Assembly (NCBI GenBank): GCA_026421205.1
Contig: JAPKBM010000019.1
Location: forward strand, 1 to 33,615
DNA from: Planctomycetota bacterium
GTDB lineage: Bacteria > Planctomycetota > UBA1135
DNA length: 33,615 bases
Direction of reading: 5' to 3'
Shown: positions 932-2,754 of the stretch, piece after piece
Position numbering within the stretch: position 1 is the first letter of the stretch
Layout of the letters: each line of letters starts with the position of its first letter
Notes under the pieces: generated by a model
Told to the model about the DNA's origin: nothing
Seen by the model: only the letters and a program-made list of their open reading frames with translations
Databases searched by the model: none
Program-made: the position numbers and the translations under genes

Positions 932-1372
932 CTAACTCACTACTAGATATGCTGCCAAGGTGAGCGTTCGGATGAGATTTTGGTGCTTCAAGATGGACTT
1001 AGCCTGTGGAAGGGTGAGCCAGGCTAGCTCGTTGTGCTCGTCGGAAAGGTGGATGGCCGTGTCAGTAGGGATTTCAGCAAGAAAATGAACTGCTCGCTTC
1101 CAATAAGTGGGCATGGGTTGATAAAGAGAGGCGTCGGCAAAATCGGGGTGAAGGTCCTGGGGGAGCAGGTTCACGCTGGTTTCCTCTAAAACTTCGCGGC
1201 AAGCCCCAGCTTGGAGGCTCTCTCCCTTTTTCAGTTGGCCCTTAGGAAATCCCCAAGATAGGTGTAGCGCATTGCGGAGCATTAAGAACTCCGGGCCTTG
1301 CTGGCCGGCTCGCCATAAAACAATGCCGGCAGCAATCACGGGGTCGTCGGCGGTTCCATTTCCTTGAGGCAT
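932..1372 (-). CDS. Nudix hydrolase (MutT/Ap4A hydrolase-like)
   Basis: This 146-residue Nudix hydrolase is predicted to cleave a nucleoside diphosphate linked to another moiety. The Nudix box is intact: Gly45, Glu51, then REVLEET at 59-65, matching G-x5-E-x7-REUxEE with both metal-binding glutamates. The sequence before the box (SWGFPKGQ) is like that of asymmetric Ap4A hydrolases and related house-cleaning enzymes, but substrate cannot be read from sequence. It is divergent from pyrK with a 38-bp gap. The ATG at 1372 lies six bases after TAGAAT, with no Shine-Dalgarno sequence, suggesting a leaderless or near-leaderless mRNA. A second, catalytically degraded Nudix gene lies at 20900-21343. 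Confidence 0.85.
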   Translation of the reverse strand: MPQGNGTADDPVIAAGIVLWRAGQQGPEFLMLRNALHLSWGFPKGQLKKGESLQAGACREVLEETSVNLLPQDLHPDFADASLYQPMPTYWKRAVHFLAEIPTDTAIHLSDEHNELAWLTLPQAKSILKHQNLIRTLTLAAYLVVS

Positions 1373-2256: not shown

Positions 2257-2754
2257 ATGGAACGTTGGTCCATTGCAGTGAACAAAGAGGCTTTTAAGTT
2301 CTCTTCCGCACATTTTTTAATCTTCCCCGACGGCTCTGCAGAGAGATTGCATGGGCATAATTACCGTGTTTCTGTTGCTTTATATGGAGAATTGTCACGC
2401 TTTGGGCTCGTTTTGGACTTTAATCGGATGAAGCCCTTAGTGAAGAAAATATGTAAGAGGTTGAATGAGCAATGGCTGATTCCAGGTGAGCATGCTGTTT
2501 TAACTCATTCCTTGAGGGCTGATGGTGTCGTAGAAGTGCGTTATTTGGACCGTTATTACGCAGCGCCGCAAGAAGACGTCACGATTCTACCCATCAATAA
2601 CACTTCGGTAGAGAACCTAAGTGCCTGGTTTGGCCGCACCCTTTTGGAGGAGATTCATACTCAGTTTCCTGATGTCACGGTGGAGGAAATGACGGTTTCT
2701 GTCGAGGAAACGGCAGGGCAGCGGGCTCAATATCATTATTCTGCTCAGGCATAG
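2257..2754 (+). CDS. 6-pyruvoyl-tetrahydropterin synthase / QueD-family protein lacking the usual catalytic Cys
   Basis: Members of this family act on 7,8-dihydroneopterin triphosphate, making 6-carboxytetrahydropterin for queuosine (QueD), 6-pyruvoyltetrahydropterin, or in the PTPS-III branch the folate precursor hydroxymethyldihydropterin. The three zinc ligands are clear: His19 in FSSAHF, and His32 and His34 in LHGHNY. The conserved C-terminal Glu is in SVEETAG. The cysteine normally just before HGH is absent: the residues there are GSAERLHGH, with Ala28 and Glu29. Known PTPS-III enzymes replace this Cys with Glu, so a folate role is possible. The protein is 165 residues, longer than QueD at about 120, with an insertion around residues 70-115. 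No queC or queE is nearby; folC is 19 kb away. Confidence 0.8.

Follow-up and report, generated by a model that had tools for sequence, protein, structure and literature searches.

A planctomycete PTPS-III-type protein with an altered active site as a probable bypass of FolB

INTRODUCTION

Many bacteria rely on FolB to produce a precursor of folate. Replacement of FolB by PTPS-III is treated as established in passages of PMC3223725. The motif of PTPS-III is ExxHGH and that of QueD is CxxxHGH, with CExxHGH marking possible hybrids, according to sections of PMC5041015. In Plasmodium falciparum, the enzyme yields two products in comparable amounts, and Glu-38 of its FRETLH stretch is needed for formation of 6-hydroxymethyl-dihydropterin (6HMDP), as stated in parts of PMC2229834. 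Bacterial PTPS-III (Pribat et al. 2009; cited in PMC3223725 and PMC4674097), which we liken to the protein studied here by its description in the citing passages, likewise combines ExxHGH with folB-less genomes, and a portion of PMC4674097 names Planctomycetes among the phyla in which folB is missing.

Here we describe a PTPS-family gene in a 33,615-nucleotide stretch of a Planctomycetota genome (assembly GCA_026421205.1, contig JAPKBM010000019.1, positions 1 to 33,615 of the forward strand), referred to below as the window.

RESULTS

The open reading frame at 2257-2754 (plus strand) starts with ATG and encodes a product of 165 residues, which matched the Pfam PTPS model PF01242 with 73.3 bits (cut-off, 22.4). 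The curated NCBIfam models gave matches below their cut-offs, namely, 56.4 bits for the QueD model TIGR03367 (cut-off, 89.25), by which the protein is thus not classed as QueD, and 57.7 bits for the general PTPS model (cut-off, 125.5). The short PTPS paralog of the same genome likewise fell below the TIGR03367 cut-off (59.9 bits). As matches to the curated models, whether for QueD or for PTPS, fall only in this range, automatic names for such genes are likely to mislead.

The position of the catalytic Cys of QueD (CxxxHGH), four residues ahead of HGH, is occupied by Ala28 (2338-2340, plus strand) and is followed at −3 by Glu29, the first residue of Glu29-Arg-Leu-His-Gly-His (2341-2358, plus strand). 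The motif thus reads AERLHGH, and neither CxxxHGH, typical of QueD/PTPS-I, nor CxxxxxHGH, typical of PTPS-II and biopterin, is present in the window protein. A preliminary description had pointed to Ala and Glu ahead of HGH where QueD has Cys; both residues were seen, and Ala28-Glu29 corresponds to the published PTPS-III motif ExxHGH. With Ala28 in place of the QueD Cys, the protein is by motif of the pure PTPS-III type and not a I/III hybrid.

We compared the window protein with the best 80 of 565 relatives, all from one genome collection and 52-66% identical to it; by record name, 72 of these 80 are planctomycetes, seven are unnamed bacteria, and one belongs to the Deltaproteobacteria. Among the resulting 81 members, position 28 holds Ala in 52, Lys in 12, Ser in 9, Cys in 3, Thr in 2, Gln in 2, and Pro in 1, so that Cys is missing in 78. 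Glu29 is invariant (81/81), and since Glu follows the QueD Cys position in every member of this set, the family motif is ExxHGH. Thirty-one positions are invariant in the same 81 members, including His19 (2311-2313, plus strand), His32 and His34 of the motif, Glu119, and the conserved C-terminal Glu151 (2707-2709, plus strand). His19, His32, and His34 are presumably the Zn ligands, as is their role in the PTPS family. The preliminary description was therefore correct in calling the Zn ligands and the C-terminal Glu intact, but its conclusion that the fold is hence functional overlooks a changed Asp-His pair, which is discussed below.

In a phmmer search of the PDB, the top ranks went to four sequences of Plasmodium PTPS, including two point mutants (9e-22 to 3e-19; residues 6-161), while the best non-Plasmodium chain reached 8e-7 over residues 12-77 only. 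A profile built from 49 members gave 4.6e-37 for 1y13 and 2.9e-13 for the best other chain. The predicted structure of the window protein (pLDDT, 96.9; pTM, 0.91) matched 1y13 with a Z score of 22.9 over 161 residues, compared to 11-15 for the other listed PTPS/QueD chains, and Foldseek agreed in placing Plasmodium PTPS nearest to the predicted structure. Plasmodium PTPS-III (P. falciparum 1y13; P. vivax 2a0s, 3lx3, 3lze, and 3m0n) is 29-32% identical to the window protein and has in common with it a near full-length alignment, an extra segment, ExxHGH, the putative Zn ligands, and the fold (Z about 23); P. falciparum Glu-38 falls on the position of Glu29. QueD/PTPS-I of Escherichia coli (4ntk) shares the fold family and the putative Zn ligands but differs in carrying CxxxHGH, in being shorter, and in a Z score of 13-14 over 113-118 residues. 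In a tree, the window protein stood apart from the ten short paralogs included. Judged by profile and by fold ranking, with Plasmodium PTPS first in both, the window protein appears to group with characterized PTPS-III rather than with QueD.

The extra segment, at residues 77-110 (2485-2586, plus strand), had been described as an unusual insertion of 45 residues. Its actual size is about 30 residues (34 at positions 77-110, whereas most short paralogs have 2-5 residues here and a few have 22). Nor is it unusual, since it recurs in the long-form planctomycete relatives, with 33-38 residues across the long forms compared (one truncated fragment aside), and aligned without a gap to Plasmodium PTPS in the phmmer search of the PDB. 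The structure model predicts strands in and around it at residues 83-86, 91-96, 99-104, and 108-111.

Analysis of the organism's own genome (2.15 Mb in 96 contigs, 88% complete) revealed FolE on contig C72, FolK on C93, and FolP on C20, above the cut-offs of TIGR00063, TIGR01498, and TIGR01496, respectively. FolB (PF02152) had no match in this 88% complete assembly; the same search was positive in 10 of 14 control genomes. That the genome may lack folB had been suggested beforehand and agrees with this gene content, although the incompleteness and fragmentation of the assembly count against its absence. The proposed survey of queuosine genes returned QueC (above the TIGR00364 cut-off) and, for QueE, an open reading frame whose five best matches are all QueE models, each under its cut-off; the cut-off of the QueE model TIGR03365 was passed in none of 61 genomes and in 1 of 14 controls. 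Tgt is also present. A second PTPS (G000:C72:39957-40918; L001 1489-2471) lies directly before folE, its open reading frame overlapping folE by 4 bases, and has both Cys and the Asp-His pair; its motif is CxxxxxHGH, that of PTPS-II, and it is possibly the acting QueD despite this biopterin-type motif. Given QueC, Tgt, the QueE-like frame, and this Cys-bearing PTPS, queuosine synthesis could do without the window gene.

That the window protein itself is the organism's QueD, making 6-carboxy-tetrahydropterin for queuosine and tolerating the missing Cys, is very improbable. Some relatives (for example, G029 and G057) have QueC and Tgt matches with the Cys-less long form as their only PTPS match, and the family motifs are not mutually exclusive, given the CExxHGH hybrids described in sections of PMC5041015. 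Against such a role stand the near-complete loss of Cys among the 81 members, the second PTPS next to folE in the same genome, and genome G037, in which QueC and a QueE-like radical-SAM gene enclose a short CxxxHGH PTPS and the long form is found on another contig, as well as sequence, tree, and fold, by which the window protein sides with Plasmodium PTPS or stands apart from the short paralogs. The combination that the preliminary description had set against PTPS-III, folB together with a complete queuosine cluster and grouping with QueD, was not what we observed: folB was not found, a separate PTPS bears the Cys, and the protein lies away from the ten short paralogs.

The occurrence of FolB was then compared between genomes with and without the clade of the window protein (window clade). 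Among 61 relatives, including the own genome, 43 carry a window-clade member, with the motif checked in the DNA. FolB was detected in none of these 43 carriers, compared to 4 of the 18 noncarriers, while FolK was present in 42/43 and FolE in 43/43 carriers, including G032, whose FolE is a 50-residue fragment interrupted by a stop. Three clade members are located directly upstream of folE (G049:C181, G052:C87, and G252:C3; PF01227, 246-252 bits), and two of these genomes, G049 and G052, each carry a second clade member.

In a wider set of 392 phylum genomes, 133 contained a long-form PTPS, defined by a profile score of 90 as the threshold. Cys-less ExxHGH long forms accounted for 87 of them, with FolB in 2 (G078 and G123); both lie outside the window clade, and they count against the bypass reading. 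The remaining 46 have CExxHGH long forms, with FolB in 18. These are similar to the window protein in length, extra segment, and Glu but retain Cys and Asp-His in 45 of the 46 genomes; the exception, G048, is a window-clade genome and has the one Cys-bearing long form of the clade in this set. The clade comprises 61 of the 133 long forms, and FolB was found in none of its 61 carriers among the 392 phylum genomes. Truncated genes at contig ends in G183 and G241, of which that in G183 reads like the window clade, fell below the threshold and are outside the 133; neither genome has folB.

FolB absence alone is nevertheless weak evidence, since of the 292 phylum genomes in which FolB was absent or under cut-off (G287 having a match below cut-off), 179 also have no long-form PTPS above the threshold. 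The raw folB counts (2/87 Cys-less versus 18/46 Cys-bearing) gave a Fisher value of 4e-8, a statistic that ignores kinship. On the gene tree, obtained by a quick method with long branches flagged, the Cys state changes 3 times and folB 7 times. The idea that Cys loss drives folB loss was set aside, with only 3 independent pairs and a sign test p of 1 on the gene tree. Because the association with folB is clustered by phylogeny, structure and the gene swap described next weigh more than the counts. The best 80 of 565 loci overlap the genomes of these surveys (locus L009, for example, is genome G056), and the two sets are therefore not independent.

Particularly direct evidence on folB came from genus g30 (G039, G045, and G060). 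In its family, f8, window-clade members occur in 18 of the 21 genomes listed. The three g30 genomes have no match to the window protein and one PTPS each, of the CxxxHGH kind. All three possess folB, which in G039 exceeds the TIGR00525 cut-off, and a second folK, which in G039 passed the Pfam HPPK model and had its best NCBIfam match, at 51.2 bits, just under the cut-off of 54.1. Their gene order is the same (L189 3395-9514 in G039:C17; L337 in G045:C9; L338 in G060:C4), with ABC-2 permeases, an ABC ATPase, the CxxxHGH PTPS, folB, folK, an SDR gene, and an Amidohydro_2 gene. In five related loci (L004, L009, L011, L019, and L067), PTPS-III is flanked by a homologous amidohydrolase gene and three homologous transporter genes. 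Between the g30 genomes and these five loci, the flanking homologues are 39-62% identical and in the same relative orientation, and L009, L095, and L339 all denote one position in G056, a genome of family f8. With homologous flanks on both sides, the PTPS-III position immediately before the transporter genes is occupied by a QueD-type PTPS together with folB-folK. Parsimony suggests that PTPS-III was lost and folB gained. FolE (PF01227) had no match in the three g30 genomes. Such a natural swap in the same chromosomal slot provides unusually direct genomic evidence that folB-folK and PTPS-III do the same job.

The window locus is not the swap slot, and no folate gene adjoins the PTPS-III gene in the window. 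Directly upstream is a gene for a PyrK-like dihydroorotate dehydrogenase electron transfer subunit (1411-2223), a neighbor that recurs in several relatives. In the window plus the best 80 of 565 loci, the PyrK-like cluster was found in 10 of 81 and adjoins PTPS in 7; these counts are low because longer opposite-strand frames masked PTPS, which was placed in only 33 of the 81 loci. A tRNA-Pro (GGG) gene (2836-2912) follows directly downstream, and the heparinase-like gene probably does not begin at the frame start at 2868, which falls inside this tRNA. Two genes from the PTPS-III gene lies a NUDIX gene (932-1372, minus strand), which matched dihydroneopterin triphosphate diphosphatase weakly (29.6 bits; cut-off, 103) and MutT1 better, though also under cut-off; a gene of similar appearance, as judged by eye, forms a cluster near PTPS in 5 of the 81 loci (window and best 80 of 565; again low counts). 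Elsewhere, five genomes of family f5 (G029:C57, G049:C47, G033:C15, G057:C135, and G055:C1) have a divergent QueC-type gene adjacent or close to a FolP-type gene; the pairs in L234 and L235 were seen in a second comparison as well.

What the preliminary description missed is that the Asp-His pair of the PTPS family, which normally completes the active site and which we take to be Asp70-His71 in E. coli numbering, is Asn70-Glu71 in the window copy (2464-2469, plus strand). An intersubunit catalytic triad is named in the title of a cited reference. Plasmodium PTPS retains Asp-His (LDHHFILP), in contrast to the window clade with Asp-Glu and the window copy with Asn-Glu. Among the 81 members (window and best 80 of 565), the first position is Asp in 79 and Asn in 2, the window protein being one of the latter, and the second is Glu in 79 and Gln in 2. 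In the tree of the 133 long forms, the 61 Glu bearers form one branch (SH-aLRT, 96), the other 72 carrying His, and the His changes once on this tree (quick method, long branches flagged); as the two groups were sorted by residue 71 itself, it is the tree that serves as the test. The largely open-access literature searched contained no report dealing with this clade or with its Glu.

Given Asp-Glu in the clade and Asn-Glu in the window copy, the usual His should play no part in the chemistry, and protons should be relayed differently than in the Plasmodium enzyme. On the sequences compared, the changed pair, and in the window copy the loss of the Asp kept by 79 of the 81, would count against PTPS-III activity; we treat the departure from the Plasmodium Asp-His as a probable variant and not as breaching a family requirement. 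His79 is a weak candidate as a stand-in for the lost His, since it is also found in 35 of the 45 Cys-bearing long forms that retain Asp-His. A more speculative proposal, which we consider rather unlikely, is that the clade is a dedicated FolB analogue whose site was rebuilt around Glu29 and Glu71 after loss of Cys and His, such that the competing pyruvoyl-tetrahydropterin side reaction seen in the malarial enzyme is gone and 6-hydroxymethyl-7,8-dihydropterin is the sole product, with the clade-conserved His79 maybe part of the relay.

The replaced His throughout the clade and Asn-Glu in the window copy could also mean that a site without Cys and Asp-His has drifted to another activity or to none, folate precursors being obtained by uptake or through an unknown enzyme. 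We hold this to be very unlikely in view of the 31 positions that do not vary among the 81 members, including Glu29, Glu119, Glu151, and the putative Zn ligands, of the near-universal FolK and FolE of the 43 carriers (one FolE being the fragment), and of the in-place swap with folB-folK, which points to the folate step.

DISCUSSION

Taken together, the window gene very probably encodes a PTPS-III-type bypass of FolB, as judged from sequence comparison and a structure model. This is how the preliminary description had read it, and motif, fold, nearest solved relatives, gene content, adjacency to folE in three relatives, and the swap all lend support. For substrate, product, and the chemistry of Glu29, we infer the following scheme. 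As a zinc-dependent tunnel-fold enzyme, the protein would act on the FolE product 7,8-dihydroneopterin triphosphate, and Glu29 would take over from the QueD Cys as the base of the active site, with cleavage of the side chain. The product would be 6-hydroxymethyl-7,8-dihydropterin, and since FolK and FolP would carry it on to folate, no FolB would be needed.

Planctomycetes are known for tetrahydromethanopterin genes. That the same pterin is made mainly for tetrahydromethanopterin and not for folate is nonetheless extremely improbable: some archaea use PTPS-III members in that pathway (as noted in sections of PMC5041015), but the only marker searched, PF08714 (Fae), was found in none of the 61 genomes, including the own genome, with 2 of 14 controls positive, and the own genome has both FolK and FolP.

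A PTPS-III function of the window protein would mean that the FolB bypass known in malaria parasites and certain bacteria also operates in a planctomycete branch, one whose enzyme has an altered active site. If the Glu-for-His change is functional, the clade would constitute a natural set of enzymes for the choice between C-C cleavage and the pyruvoyl route.
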